Source: Mollicutes bacterium
GTDB lineage: Bacteria > Bacillota_I > Bacilli_A > Izemoplasmatales > Izemoplasmataceae
Length of the DNA stretch: 62,009 bases
Reading direction: 5' to 3'
NCBI GenBank assembly: GCA_003551005.1
Contig: PULR01000024.1
Location: 1-62,009 of the forward strand
The notes beneath the pieces were generated by a model. It made no database searches, was not told the origin of the DNA, and worked only from the letters and a program-made list of their open reading frames with translations. Below are positions 1,729 through 55,098 of the stretch, one piece after another (position 1 is the first letter of the stretch; each line of letters starts with the position of its first letter). Made by a program: the position numbers and the translations under genes.

Positions 1729-1757
1729 TTGACCGGAATATAACAGGCAAATATAAT
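1729..1757 (+). promoter_or_regulatory. promoter of arsR-copA operon
   Basis: TTGACC (1729-1734), 17-base spacer, TATAAT (1752-1757). The ribosome site of the regulator gene follows at once (AAGGAGGA near 1768). An ArsR dimer would be expected to bind around this spacer, but no clean inverted repeat is obvious. Confidence 0.75.
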
Positions 1758-1779: not shown

Positions 1780-2151
1780 ATGGACGATATTGAAACGCTC
1801 AGTCTGTTAGGAAACGTCAGCCGATTACGCATTGTGGCTTTGCTTGTGGATTCTGAACTGTGTGTCTGTGAACTTGAAGAAATCACCGGCATTCGCCAGG
1901 TGAACATATCGAAGCACCTGCATCGTCTGCGACAAGCAGGCGTTGTCTCTTCTCGCAGAGAAAAGCAGCGTGTCTTCTATTATCTTACGGAGACATTTCT
2001 CTCCAGGGAAGCGCTGCTCTCCCATATCGTCAATCTCGTCTCTGAGATCCCGCAGTTGAGGACGGACCGGGAACGTTTTCTTGCACACGAGCAGGATAAG
2101 GACGAGCAGGTCTATGTATGCAACGTCTTCAAAAAGGAGAATCTGTCATGA
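1780..2151 (+). CDS. ArsR-family metalloregulator
   Basis: A 123-residue winged-helix repressor of the ArsR/SmtB family, probably sensing a thiophilic metal and controlling the ATPase that follows. The N-terminal half has the ELCVCELEEIT segment near residue 24, the Cys-x-Cys site of the alpha-3 metal-binding type, followed by the recognition helix region (RQVNISKHLHRLRQAG). A Cys also lies near the C-terminus. The ATG at 1780 has AGGAGG seven bases upstream and lies behind a near-consensus promoter; the longer frame from 1756 overlaps the -10 box. The stop overlaps the ATPase start (ATGA at 2148), so the two are cotranslated. An ArsR, rather than CopY or CsoR, next to a Cu+ pump is less usual. 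Confidence 0.9.
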   Translation: MDDIETLSLLGNVSRLRIVALLVDSELCVCELEEITGIRQVNISKHLHRLRQAGVVSSRREKQRVFYYLTETFLSREALLSHIVNLVSEIPQLRTDRERFLAHEQDKDEQVYVCNVFKKENLS

Positions 2152-4541
2152 TCAAGAAAAAAACCATACGGGTCGAAGGCATGACTTGCGCCATGTGCGC
2201 GAAAACCATCGAGAACAGTTTCGAGGATTTCAGCGGCGTCGATGTACGGGTGAACGTCGGCGCGAACCAGGTGGTCGTCCGCTACGACGACGAGTACACA
2301 CGGCTGACCGATATCGCCCAGCGCATCGACGACGCTGGATATAAGGCGGTCCTTGATGCATCCTTTAAAGATGAGAAGGATGTCCGTCAACGCATGAAAC
2401 GAGAAGTCTTCCTCGCTATCGGTCTGTCCCTGCCGTTGTTGTGGGCGATGTTCGGACATCTCGCATGGTTCGATTTCCTCTATGTCCCCTCGCTTTTCAT
2501 GGATGGGCGTTTCCAGCTTGTCCTGGCCGGCGTGGTTCAGTTCTACATCGGCAAACGATTCTACGTCGGGGCCTTCAACTCGCTGAAGCACAAAACACTG
2601 GGAATGGACATTCTCGTGGTGCTCGGCACCACGAGTGCCTATCTTTACAGCGTATATTTGCTGCTCGACCATTTGATAGCCGGCGGGGCTCATCAACCGG
2701 AGTACTTCTTTGAAATCAGCGCATTGATTATCACAATGGTCCTCGTGGGGAACTACTTTGAGCATCTTGCCAAGGAGAGGACCACGGATGCGCTGGTGGA
2801 ACTTGTCAACCTCGGGGCAAAGGAAGCGCGCCGACTTAAAGATGGACAAGAAGAAAAAGTTCCCATCGAAGCTGTCGAGGTCGGCGACCGCCTCGTCGTG
2901 CATGCGCATGAGAAGATTCCGACTGACGGCGTCATTGTCGAAGGGGAGACCTATATCGACGAATCGATGCTGACGGGAGAAAGCGTTCCAGTTGAGAAGG
3001 CTGTTGGCGAAGAGGTCATCGGTGCGACGTTGAATGATCAGGAGCGTATTGTTATTGAAGCGACCAAGGTAGGAAGCGACACGATGCTCTCCAAGATCAT
3101 CGAGACGGTCGAGGAGGCCAGCGCTCACAAGCCACCCATCCAGCGGACCGCGGACCGTGTGTCTGCGTTCTTTGTTCCGTTGGTGGTGCTCATCGCCCTT
3201 GGCAACTTTCTGGTTCACTATTTCCCCTTGGACTATCCGTTTACAGTATCGTTCACGCGTAGCGTCGCCATCCTCGTCATCAGCTGTCCCTGCGCGCTCG
3301 GGCTCGCGACACCGACCTCCATATTAGTCGGAAACGCCAAGGCTGCACGCAACCATGTTCTCTACAAGGGCGGAGAGTTCTTTGAACGTGCCAACGCCAT
3401 CGAGGCCATTGCTTTCGACAAAACCGGGACGCTGACCGAAGGAAAACCGCAGGTCACGGATTATGAAGGCGATTCTGATGTCCTGGATTATCTGTATAGC
3501 ATTGAACAAGAATCCACCCATCCGATTGCCACGGCAGTTGCGGAATATGCCGAAACCCAAGGCGCTTCGCCGCTTCCCGTGAAGGGTCTGGAAACCCATA
3601 AGGGCAAAGGCGTCGAGGCGGAGGTCGACGGTGTCCATGTGGCTGTGGGTAATCAGCGCTTGATGGCGACCATCGACGCAGACCATTCTGAATTTGACAA
3701 CCGGGCGGAGACATGGCTTTCACAGGCTAAAACGGTAAACTACGTCGCCCTGGATGGAAAAGTCCGGGCGGGCTATGCGGTTCGCGACGAAATCAAGCCG
3801 ACATCGCGTTCGGTCATTCAGTCCATGCACGCAAGAGGTTTAAAAGCGATCATGGTGACGGGCGACCATCAACGGGTCGCTGATGCGATTGCTGGAGAAC
3901 TTGGCATTGATGAAGTCTATGCCGAGGTCCTGCCACATGAAAAAGCGGAAATTGTCCAAACCATCCAGCAAGACGGCACCGTCGTCGCCTTTGTCGGGGA
4001 CGGCATCAACGACGCACCCGCTCTCAAGCTTGCGGACATCGGCATCGCGATGGGCTATGGTACCGATGTCGCCATTGAATCCAGCGACGTTACCATCATG
4101 AGTCAGAATCTGGGCCTCGTGCTCAAAGCTATCGCGATGAGCAAGGCTACGCTTAGAAACATCCGCCAGAATTTCTTCTGGGCCTTCTCCTATAATCTGG
4201 TCGCCATCCCGCTGGCCGCGACTGGAAGACTTTCGATGCTGCTTGCCGCTGTCGCCATGGCATTCAGCTCGATTATGGTTGTTCTTAATGCGTTGCGACT
4301 CAAGACGACGAAACTGCCCGAATTCTCCATAGCATCCAAAGAAGGAGGTGACAGGATGGATTTCAAAGTTCCCGATATGAGCTGCGGTCATTGCAAGATG
4401 ACCATTGAGCAGGCCTTGACCGCTGCCGGTTATAAACAGGTACAGATTGACCTTGAGCGTGGAATCGTATCTGTTGAGACTGAAGACGAAGCCGCTGTAC
4501 GTAAGATTATCGAGGATAATGGCTACGCAGTGAGTGATTAG
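2148..4541 (+). CDS. copA: Cu(+)-exporting P1B-type ATPase, with fused C-terminal HMA domain
   Basis: A 797-residue membrane pump that exports Cu+. An N-terminal heavy-metal domain carries GMTCAMC (Cys14, Cys17); eight membrane helices follow, with the ion-binding CPC in SCPCALGLATP near residue 380, the phosphorylation site DKTGT near residue 425 and the GDGIND hinge. The last helices contain SYN and MAFSS, the signature of the Cu+ (P1B-1) class. Unusually, a second HMA domain (DMSCGHC) is fused at the C-terminus, after residue 736. It starts by an ATGA overlap with the ArsR gene. The join to the C-terminal domain encodes a perfect Shine-Dalgarno (see the nested copZ entry), as if an ancestral copA-copZ pair became one frame. 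No other function fits. Confidence 0.95.
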   Translation: MIKKKTIRVEGMTCAMCAKTIENSFEDFSGVDVRVNVGANQVVVRYDDEYTRLTDIAQRIDDAGYKAVLDASFKDEKDVRQRMKREVFLAIGLSLPLLWAMFGHLAWFDFLYVPSLFMDGRFQLVLAGVVQFYIGKRFYVGAFNSLKHKTLGMDILVVLGTTSAYLYSVYLLLDHLIAGGAHQPEYFFEISALIITMVLVGNYFEHLAKERTTDALVELVNLGAKEARRLKDGQEEKVPIEAVEVGDRLVVHAHEKIPTDGVIVEGETYIDESMLTGESVPVEKAVGEEVIGATLNDQERIVIEATKVGSDTMLSKIIETVEEASAHKPPIQRTADRVSAFFVPLVVLIALGNFLVHYFPLDYPFTVSFTRSVAILVISCPCALGLATPTSILVGNAKAARNHVLYKGGEFFERANAIEAIAFDKTGTLTEGKPQVTDYEGDSDVLDYLYSIEQESTHPIATAVAEYAETQGASPLPVKGLETHKGKGVEAEVDGVHVAVGNQRLMATIDADHSEFDNRAETWLSQAKTVNYVALDGKVRAGYAVRDEIKPTSRSVIQSMHARGLKAIMVTGDHQRVADAIAGELGIDEVYAEVLPHEKAEIVQTIQQDGTVVAFVGDGINDAPALKLADIGIAMGYGTDVAIESSDVTIMSQNLGLVLKAIAMSKATLRNIRQNFFWAFSYNLVAIPLAATGRLSMLLAAVAMAFSSIMVVLNALRLKTTKLPEFSIASKEGGDRMDFKVPDMSCGHCKMTIEQALTAAGYKQVQIDLERGIVSVETEDEAAVRKIIEDNGYAVSD
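4356..4541 (+). CDS. nested in-frame CopZ-like copper chaperone (internal start in copA)
   Basis: An in-frame ATG at 4356 is preceded by AAGGAGGTG (4342-4350) with five bases between, better than most ribosome sites in this window. Initiation there would give a free 61-residue heavy-metal-associated domain beginning MDFKVPDMSCGHC, the size of a stand-alone CopZ chaperone, which hands Cu+ to the ATPase. The linker read from the ribosome site in the long protein is Lys-Glu-Gly-Gly-Asp-Arg. That the domain exists is clear; that it is made separately is an inference from the ribosome site. Confidence 0.55.
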   Translation: MDFKVPDMSCGHCKMTIEQALTAAGYKQVQIDLERGIVSVETEDEAAVRKIIEDNGYAVSD

Positions 4542-4616: not shown

Positions 4617-4703
4617 GGAGGGGTAGCGAAGTTGGCCAAACGCGGCAGACTGTAAATCTGCTCCCTCTCGGGTTCGGCGGTTCGAATCCGTCCCCCTCCA
4701 CCA
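4617..4703 (+). tRNA. tRNA-Tyr (GTA)
   Basis: A class II tRNA of 87 bases with acceptor stem GGAGGGG/CCCCTCC, anticodon GTA at 4652-4654, a long variable arm, TTCGAAT T-loop and encoded CCA at 4701-4703. Confidence 0.96.
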
Positions 4704-4710
4704 CTCACAC

Positions 4711-4785
4711 AGGGGTGTGGTGTCAATGGTAGCACAGCGGTCTCCAAAACCGCTGGTCCGGGTTCGAATCCTGGCACCCCTGCCA
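4711..4785 (+). tRNA. tRNA-Trp (CCA)
   Basis: Acceptor stem AGGGGTG/CACCCCT, anticodon CCA at 4744-4746, T-loop TTCGAATC and encoded CCA end. It starts seven bases after tRNA-Tyr and is surely cotranscribed. The anticodon reads UGG only, in line with UGA being a stop codon. Confidence 0.96.
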
Positions 4786-45407: not shown

Positions 45408-45418
45408 AAAGAGGATTG

Positions 45419-45488
45419 AGTGGCGATGGCGTTCGCCGAAACCGCCGAAAGGCTGATGACGCCTGCGTGTTTTTTGCGCAGGTTTTTT
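45419..45488 (+). ncRNA. fluoride riboswitch (crcB motif) with terminator
   Basis: The transcript from 45421 reads TGGCGATGGCGTTCGCC, then GAAACC, a GCC-GAAA-GGC hairpin and TGATGACGCC, which is the crcB consensus: P1 and the pseudoknot pieces GGCGATGG...ATGACGCC. The 3' side merges into a terminator, CCTGCG/CGCAGG (45462-45481) followed by T6. Fluoride binding should stabilise the aptamer and let transcription go on into the antiporter gene. Confidence 0.88.
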
Positions 45489-53354: not shown

Positions 53355-53567
53355 AGAGTGCTTACGTTAGGTGAGGCTCCTATACAGATAGACGCTGCTG
53401 CCCGGAAATGTCGAAAGATGCCAACGGGTCAACAGACACTGCCGACTTAAGGCTTGTCTAATGCAGCTGGCGGAAGCCAACGCTGTATAGTGCCAAAACT
53501 CAACGAAGGTAAGATGGTTATCTGAGGTTTTGGATAATCTGAGCCTGCCGTTGAGGCAGGCTTTTTT
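53355..53567 (+). ncRNA. M-box magnesium riboswitch (ykoK leader)
   Basis: The aptamer carries the conserved ykoK blocks GTTAGGTGAGGCTCCTATA (53366-53384), ACGCTGCTGCCC, GCCAACGGGTCAACAG, TAATGCAGCTGG and TGTATAGTGCCAAAACTC, in the right order and spacing; CTTAC/GTAAG close the P1 helix (53361-53365 with 53509-53513). The expression platform ends in a terminator, GCCTGCC/GGCAGGC (53543-53561) with T6. High Mg2+ should favour the terminator and shut off mgtE. Confidence 0.95.
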
Positions 53568-53592
53568 GATAGTCAGCCAAAGGAGGTGTGGT

Positions 53593-53700: not shown

Positions 53701-55098
53701 ATGCTTAAAGAGAACATGAGAATCGTGAACGAAATCCGTGAAATGATCAACGAAAGCGAGACCAGAAAGCTCAAGGAAGTCATCAATGAAATCGAGGACT
53801 ACAATCTAGCGGACTTGATTGAAATCCTGGAGCCAAAGTACCAAGTGGTCGTGTTCCGCCTGCTGGAAAAAGACAAGGCCATCGAGGTCTTCGAGCACAT
53901 TGAACCGGAAGTCCAGCAGGATCTTTTGCAAAACTTCACCGACGAGAAAGCCGTGGAGTTTTTCAAGGGATTGGAACCGGACGACCGCGCCAAATTGATG
54001 GACGAGCTCCCCGCCAAGGTGGCCAAGCGCCTGCTCGCCTCCCTCTCGAATGAGGAGCGGGAATACACGAACCTTGTCATGGGTTATGACACCGGGACCG
54101 CCGGCAACATCATGACTCCCAAGTACATCCGGTTCAAGGAGAACCTGACCGTCGAAGAAGGGTTGAAGAGGCTCCGCGAGGTCGGCTCCGGCTATGAAAA
54201 CCTCTATCAGATCTATGTGACCGATAACAGCCGTCGCTTGATCGGGACTATCGAGCTGACGTCGCTGGTGACAGCCGATCCCAAGCAGAAAGTCTCCGAG
54301 GTCATGGTCACGGACCCCATCAGCGTCACCTACGACGTCCACGACGAAGTCGTCTCGAAGATGCTGCAGGAATCCGACCTGCTCTCCATCCCCGTCATCG
54401 ACAAGGAGAACCGTCTGCTGGGCGCCGTCACGGTTGACGACGCCATTGACGTGCTGGAAGAAGAAGCTCGCGAACAAGCGCTCAGCAACGCCGGTTTCGC
54501 GGACGTGGGCAAGCTGGAGATCGACCGCAGCCGCGTGCTGACCACCGGAAGCCTGCCCTGGGTCTGGCGCATCCGCATGCCCTATCTCATGCTGGCCATG
54601 GCCGGCGGATTGATGGCCGGGTTCTTCATCGAACGCTTCGAGGATACCCTGGCGCAATTCTATGCGCTGGCCTTCTTCATTCCCGTGATCATGGACATGG
54701 GCGGAAATGTCGGCACCCAGTCGTCGACCATTTTCACCCGGGCTGTCGTGCTTGGACAGATTGATTTCAAGCGTTTCCTCAAGCAATGGGGAAGGGAAAT
54801 CGCCATCGGGTTCACGATGGGCGTCATGACCGGCATCCTCGCCGGTGCGATTGTCTATCTCTGGCAGGGTTTCTTCGCAGGTTTCGAATATCCCATACAG
54901 CTGGCGCTCGTCATCGCGGGGGCCCTGGTCGTGACCATCACGGTCGCGAGCGCTGTGGGATTCATCGTCCCCTTTCTTCTCGTGAAACTCGGATTCGACC
55001 AGGCCGCCGGTTCCGTCCCCTTCATCACGACCATCAAGGACATCACCGGCATCCTGATCTATTTCTTGCTCGCGAACATGATTCTGCCCGTGATATGA
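53701..55098 (+). CDS. mgtE: magnesium transporter MgtE
   Basis: A 465-residue Mg2+ channel/transporter. The N domain (helical superhelix, residues 20-130, with LEPDDRAKLMDELP near residue 89), two CBS domains (IMTPKYIRFKENLTVEEGL near residue 139; VMVTDPISV near residue 202), the plug helix, and five membrane helices from about residue 285 can be seen; MDMGGNVGTQSSTIFTRA near residue 336 holds the pore motif. AAAGGAGG precedes the ATG. Expression is placed under Mg2+ control by the M-box upstream. The small membrane protein downstream is probably cotranslated. Confidence 0.97.
   Translation: MLKENMRIVNEIREMINESETRKLKEVINEIEDYNLADLIEILEPKYQVVVFRLLEKDKAIEVFEHIEPEVQQDLLQNFTDEKAVEFFKGLEPDDRAKLMDELPAKVAKRLLASLSNEEREYTNLVMGYDTGTAGNIMTPKYIRFKENLTVEEGLKRLREVGSGYENLYQIYVTDNSRRLIGTIELTSLVTADPKQKVSEVMVTDPISVTYDVHDEVVSKMLQESDLLSIPVIDKENRLLGAVTVDDAIDVLEEEAREQALSNAGFADVGKLEIDRSRVLTTGSLPWVWRIRMPYLMLAMAGGLMAGFFIERFEDTLAQFYALAFFIPVIMDMGGNVGTQSSTIFTRAVVLGQIDFKRFLKQWGREIAIGFTMGVMTGILAGAIVYLWQGFFAGFEYPIQLALVIAGALVVTITVASAVGFIVPFLLVKLGFDQAAGSVPFITTIKDITGILIYFLLANMILPVI

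Follow-up and report, generated by a model that had tools for sequence, protein, structure and literature searches.

A putative CopZ start site retained in frame within a fused copA gene of an Izemoplasmataceae genome and its relatives in the Bacilli

The arsR-copA locus

The window, that is, the whole stretch of DNA analysed here (62,009 nt), corresponds to contig C10 in a genome of 1.35 Mb and 65 contigs. It contains an arsR-copA unit with the following features:

1729..1757, + strand, promoter-like site (TTGACC, 17 nt, TATAAT)
1780..2151, + strand, gene for an ArsR/SmtB-type metalloregulator
2148..4541, + strand, copA, coding for a P1B copper-type ATPase of 797 aa with an HMA domain at its N- and C-terminus
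2163..2345, + strand, N-terminal HMA domain of CopA (MTCAMC)
4342..4351, + strand, internal Shine-Dalgarno (SD) sequence AAGGAGGTGA in copA, 4 nt 5′ of the internal ATG
4356..4358, + strand, internal ATG in the copA frame
4356..4541, + strand, putative nested copZ, a 61-residue HMA domain with MSCGHC, in the copA frame

The product of copA scores 568.5 bits with the copper-ATPase family model TIGR01511 (cut-off 397) and carries the motifs CPCALG (CPC membrane motif), DKTGTLT (DKTG) and GMTCAMC (N-terminal HMA CxxC), its N-terminal HMA domain scoring 58 bits with PF00403; by these matches it is a Cu+ P1B-type ATPase (CopA), predicted to function as a copper-export pump. Its relatives are, by name, Candidatus Izimaplasma/Izemoplasma and other Mollicutes-like metagenome-assembled genomes, with Acholeplasma more distant. 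The regulator (NCBIfam NF033788, 77.6 bits with a cut-off of 55; Pfam HTH_5) ends in an ATGA overlap with the start of copA (2148-2151), an overlap of the kind that joins copA to copZ in 14 of the 43 relatives whose genes are separate. The promoter-like site ahead of the regulator gene matches 11 of 12 consensus positions in a consensus scan, a match that does not by itself amount to function, and is the probable promoter of the arsR-copA unit. Two tRNA genes (4617-4700 and 4711-4782) lie 3′ of copA.

A strong SD and an in-frame start codon inside copA

The sequence AAGGAGGTG occupies positions 4342-4350 and the following base lengthens the match to AAGGAGGTGA, in the codon context AAA GAA GGA GGT GAC AGG ATG. 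From the ATG at 4356, 61 codons run to the stop codon at 4539-4541 (product MDFKVPDMSCGHCK...AVSD). A preliminary description of this DNA had pointed out the SD, the in-frame ATG and a complete 61-residue HMA domain with CGHC, and all three are confirmed, the anti-SD match being perfect over as many as 10 nt. Since the genome carries the 16S 3′ end GGATCACCTCCTTTC (contig C21), the SD inside copA can pair over these 10 nt. With SD energies calculated as those of a simple duplex with ACCUCCUUU, the internal site, at -13.5 kcal/mol, is stronger than that of copA's own start (-8.9 kcal/mol).

Such sites are rare in this genome. The window contains two copies of AAGGAGGTGA (0.14 expected) and two occurrences of AAGGAGGTG N3-6 ATG (0.02 expected), and AAGGAGGTG N3-7 ATG is found four times in the 1.35 Mb of the genome and never in a backwards control; of the three sites besides that in copA, two head long ORFs of 305 and 377 aa and the third a 25-codon ORF. 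These counts, together with the rates at control ATGs in fused genes given below, rule out a chance SD. The accessibility of the site was not unusual (0.50 unpaired, 0.45 in controls) and no special RNA structure was seen around it (fold z-score 0.39). Across related loci, the site was more accessible than controls in 57 of 63 cases, a result of little weight, as the loci had been selected on SD strength and the sequence there is rich in A. A consensus scan found no promoter-like site near 4250-4350 from which a separate copZ transcript could start.

The C-terminal HMA domain is related to CopZ

The nested domain scores 40.8 bits with the Pfam HMA model PF00403 (cut-off 24.8), with MSCGHC as its MxCxxC motif, and its matches in the PDB are 2kyz and 6ff2, the latter a CopZ. 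It stays below the cut-offs of the NCBIfam CopZ models (chaper_CopZ_Bs, 47.6 versus 91; CopZ_AFE_1862, 43.7 versus 85), and therefore automatic annotation would not call it CopZ. We built a tree of 95 HMA domains (33 N-terminal, 27 fused C-terminal and 35 from separate CopZ proteins), of which only the coarse split was used because there are few columns: all 33 N-terminal domains fell on one side of a branch with support 92, and the fused C-terminal domains and separate CopZ proteins interleave. The best scores of the C-terminal HMA domain were with the separate CopZ of two congeners (160 and 158), as against 46 with the N-terminal HMA domain of the same protein. The tree and scores led us to reject a recent duplication of the N-terminal HMA domain as its source, and support the C-terminal domain as a former separate CopZ, orthologous to the copZ found beside copA.

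No other free CopZ of this type was seen in the genome, where the two other HMA matches differ, being an ATPase on contig C62 and an 80-aa protein with CAGC on contig C60. The latter (L005, 21-263, - strand) lies near the contig end and adjoins a two-component system; it matches P0002 with an E-value of 0.0054 only, and its lineage differs from that of the nested copZ.

Separate copZ genes in relatives

We collected 180 copA loci, leaving 143 unique ones after removal of 5 loci without the core or short of the C-terminus and 32 duplicates. In 43 of the 69 non-fused loci, the end of copA is met by an HMA gene, with one doubtful case (L130). Among these 43 separate pairs, 14 show the ATGA overlap and 16 are in frame with only a stop codon in between. 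In two congeners (G002 and G003) copA stops directly after the SD and copZ starts, with ATG or GTG, in another frame; elsewhere, there is an in-frame TAG just 5′ of the SD (G020) or an ATGA overlap of copA and copZ (G025). A plasmid of Staphylococcus warneri has separate copA and copZ genes in one frame, with AAAGGAGGTGA ahead of a TTG start. In many separate pairs the copZ SD lies within or adjoins the last copA codons, which indicates that an SD inside copA is the ordinary state of a separate pair and, therefore, that a lost stop codon or a small indel suffices for fusion.

Retention of the SD and start codon in fused genes

Fusion was called in 74 of the 143 loci; 70 of these entered the counts, after L127 (another domain), L108 (frame breaks), and L157 and L202 (near-copies) had been left out. 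At least 43 rows among the matches listed in one search looked fused and were all taken in; G037 (match to residue 212), from another search, was left aside. A second set comprised 36 further fused genomes among the matches listed and was fixed beforehand, with a predicted frequency of at least 60% for the site and 2% for controls. Altogether there are at least 106 fused loci (70 + 36) in the class Bacilli, from related species and thus not independent samples; one of them, L091, belongs to the cultured strain zrk6. An assembly error was rejected, given that many genomes belonging to several families share the fused gene together with its SD and start codon.

Among the matches listed, 65 of the 70 fused loci have a start codon 6-13 codons 5′ of MxCxxC, and the duplex energy reaches -8 kcal/mol or lower in 53 of the 70 and -6 or lower in 57; other in-frame ATGs of the same 70 reading frames reached these values in 4 and 35 of 796 cases, respectively. 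The second set replicated this result, with -8 or lower in 27 of its 36 loci among the matches listed and in 5 of 223 control ATGs (2.2%, in excess of the predicted 2%, one of the five being an HMA start further upstream). Both sets were scored by a rule that selects the most favourable among several start codons, which introduces a mild bias. When the start was picked without regard to energy, -8 or lower was found in 79 of the 106 fused loci among the matches listed, and in 35 of 49 of a non-redundant set with one locus per group of at least 80% identity; by the same procedure, 10 of the 106 loci among the matches listed had no start codon within the range considered and 21 had no SD at -6 or lower. 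In 48 of 63 loci a spacer of 7 or 8 nt separates AGGAGG from the start codon. Where Met is replaced by Val (L079, L082, L163 and L249) this is coded by GTG, still a start codon. Such a site is not inherent to HMA domains: among 17 internal N-terminal ones, just one has an ATG, and an SD at -6 or lower is absent from all. In short, an SD and a start codon lie within the ORF, in frame and conserved, which is the arrangement of internal in-frame initiation.

One group of fused genes (L218, L219, L220 and L195) has an extended HMA N-terminus; the fixed rule of 6-13 codons undercounts, because L218 has an ATG 17 codons 5′ of MxC with an SD of -11.1. One lineage (L025, L028 and L029), corresponding to one genus of the family, lost both SD and start codon and kept the fusion, from which it follows that the domain can serve a purpose in its tethered form only; here nature has converted a chaperone into a purely tethered domain.

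In 63 loci, the equivalent of AGGAGG is in codon phase 2 in 30, in phase 1 in 28 and in phase 0 in 5, so that its codons spell mainly Lys-Gly-Gly or Lys-Glu-Glu. With expectations from each gene's own codon use and the start chosen without energy, GAG codes for 36 of 49 Glu residues at codon -4 (9.3 expected; 19 of 25 versus 4.9 in the non-redundant set), AAG for 30 of 55 Lys at codon -5 (14.8 expected) and GGA for 28 of 34 Gly at codon -4 (13.0 expected). Outside the SD, at codons -3 and -6 to -10, GAG and AAG were not enriched in this way. The occurrence of the SD in differing codon phases and the enrichment of AAG, GAG and GGA only at SD codons argue for selection on the nucleotides themselves.

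Evolutionary history of the fusion

A tree of 64 full CopA cores was made by a quick method, without inferring the root. The fused or separate state changes five times on it, all five changes being forced by well-supported branches. Most rows of the window's family are fused, and the separate ones (L008 with L009, L023, and L020) lie among them; one clade of the tree comprises 17 fused genes with SD plus one separate pair. On a class-wide tree of about 165 residues there were ten changes, four of them forced, and origins of the fusion were not counted there because of the poor resolution of this tree and a choice of rows based in part on their being fused.

The preliminary description had proposed that a copA-copZ pair lost its stop codon in this genome and fused in frame while keeping the second start, and had looked to relatives with a separate copZ at this site. 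Such relatives exist, as seen above. The origin of the C-terminal domain from a separate CopZ stands, given the HMA tree and the congener scores, and the kept start is borne out by the selection on SD and start in many fused relatives. A simple stop loss in this genome is not supported, since the congener copZ is in another frame and the fused form is found in most of the family. The same offset in frame and the interleaving of fused and separate genes on the tree suggest that the fusion probably predates this genome. Either the fused state is old with several re-splits, or fusion is recurrent. The history looks old and reversible, and the congeners with separate genes may have re-split; under both an old and a recurrent fusion, a working copZ start would have been present before and after the switch.

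One gene for a pump and a free chaperone, and its alternatives

Comparison of the sequences makes it highly probable that this single copA gene gives rise to both the pump and a free CopZ, the latter by internal initiation at 4356 and acting as a Cu+ chaperone. It is the best explanation because the second start has been kept under selection at the nucleotide level. In this model, two genes that usually lie side by side with coupled translation, copA and copZ, would have fused in frame, and selection would have preserved the signals for starting copZ, its ribosome-binding site and its start codon, within the fusion. Ribosomes starting at 2148 would then make the pump with its tethered C-terminal HMA domain, and those starting at 4356 on the same mRNA the free 61-residue CopZ, which would ferry Cu+ to the pump. 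It is also likely that a hidden in-frame copZ exists within copA in dozens of genera of Bacilli, as a selected copper system of two proteins from one gene; the few bases between SD and start would be its evolutionary toggle, where small changes fuse or split the genes again and again and the free chaperone is never lost.

That the SD and ATG are leftovers of a past fusion, no longer used, would fit the ease with which a lost stop or small indel could join the many pairs that are already in frame, as well as the existence of fused genes without SD or start (L111, besides the lineage of L025, L028 and L029), in which the tethered domain manages without. This is improbable, however, because the site is kept over many genera, despite a linker that varies from 15 to 31 codons across 21 close fused relatives, and in differing codon phases with position-specific rare codons. 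We give a very small probability to selection of a Lys/Glu/Gly-rich linker with the SD as its by-product. The amino acids do provide part of the signal, since random synonymous recoding of the linkers is expected to leave 23.5 of 65 at -8 or lower (2.7 when the last 16 codons are shuffled), but 53 were observed; moreover, KGG and KEE are the same nucleotides read in different phases, the enrichment of GAG, AAG and GGA is confined to the SD codons, and the start codon, including GTG, is kept too.

The SD is located directly after the last membrane helix region, as would suit an SD-like stretch that slows ribosomes while the last transmembrane helix folds ahead of the HMA domain, with no initiation involved. 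Pausing needs no start codon at a fixed distance, yet spacing and start codon are both conserved in most of the fused loci, and we regard this explanation as very unlikely. The least probable alternative is a different origin of the free chaperone, such as an internal promoter or a -1 frameshift after the N-terminal HMA domain, for which E. coli provides a precedent (PMC5009743); against it stand the signals conserved at the C-terminal domain and, as far as a consensus scan goes, the lack of a promoter-like site upstream of it.

Comparison with known systems

Meydan et al. and Drees et al., both in 2017 and cited in PMC7558416, reportedly described a chaperone made from E. coli copA by ribosomal frameshifting. 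The 5′ part of that gene encodes the chaperone, which a frameshift releases, and one copA thus yields the pump as well as a free copper chaperone of the HMA type, as is predicted for the present gene (PMC5009743). The E. coli product is the N-terminal HMA domain (70 aa), ended after a -1 frameshift, whereas the candidate product here is the C-terminal HMA domain, made from an internal SD and ATG, in frame, and derived from a fused copZ. Adjacent copA-copZ pairs of Bacilli (Acholeplasma, staphylococcal plasmids) have the same order and domain, often with the SD within or by the end of copA, but a stop codon or a change of frame parts the two proteins, and here the frame is continuous. The CopA of Archaeoglobus fulgidus has metal-binding domains at its N- and C-terminus and resembles the present protein in having HMA domains at both ends; we know of no report of a free product from it. 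PDB chain 3fry, named as a probable copper-exporting ATPase, matches P0002. As for internal starts, an in-frame Met within cas8b of Haloferax volcanii gives Cas11b, a separate C-terminal part of the larger protein (PMC11899642). Cas11 was tested by experiment, whereas the evidence for the nested copZ is comparative, and the proteins and their functions are unrelated.

A survey of titles and the beginnings of abstracts in the open literature, including few subscription journals, found no internal initiation of CopZ in copA. The accessible part of a paper on the cultured Izemoplasma zrk13 (PMC8397711) mentions a transcriptome, and in that part there is no mention of a proteome or of copper genes. 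The copA frameshift chaperone and internal in-frame starts are known, and a copZ that has been fused into copA and retains a conserved start would be a further variant, not found in this survey. If correct, a copper chaperone made from the pump gene itself would have been overlooked by annotation in many Bacilli and, together with the E. coli frameshift, different lineages would have taken opposite routes to a single gene for pump and chaperone. It would also imply that operon neighbours can fuse without loss of the second protein, and that other hidden domain-proteins may be sought by a signature composed of an SD, a spacer and a start codon, all in frame at the edge of a domain and with a codon phase that shifts between genes.

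Other features of the window

The window also contains a fluoride riboswitch aptamer (45413-45472; Rfam, 59.1 bits) and an M-box magnesium riboswitch (53356-53518; Rfam, 147 bits). A near-perfect ribosome-binding site at 53580, 3′ of the M-box, heads only a 25-codon ORF, followed at 53701 by an ORF of 465 aa whose product we take to resemble an MgtE-type Mg transporter; the 25-codon ORF between the M-box and this ORF possibly codes for a leader peptide.
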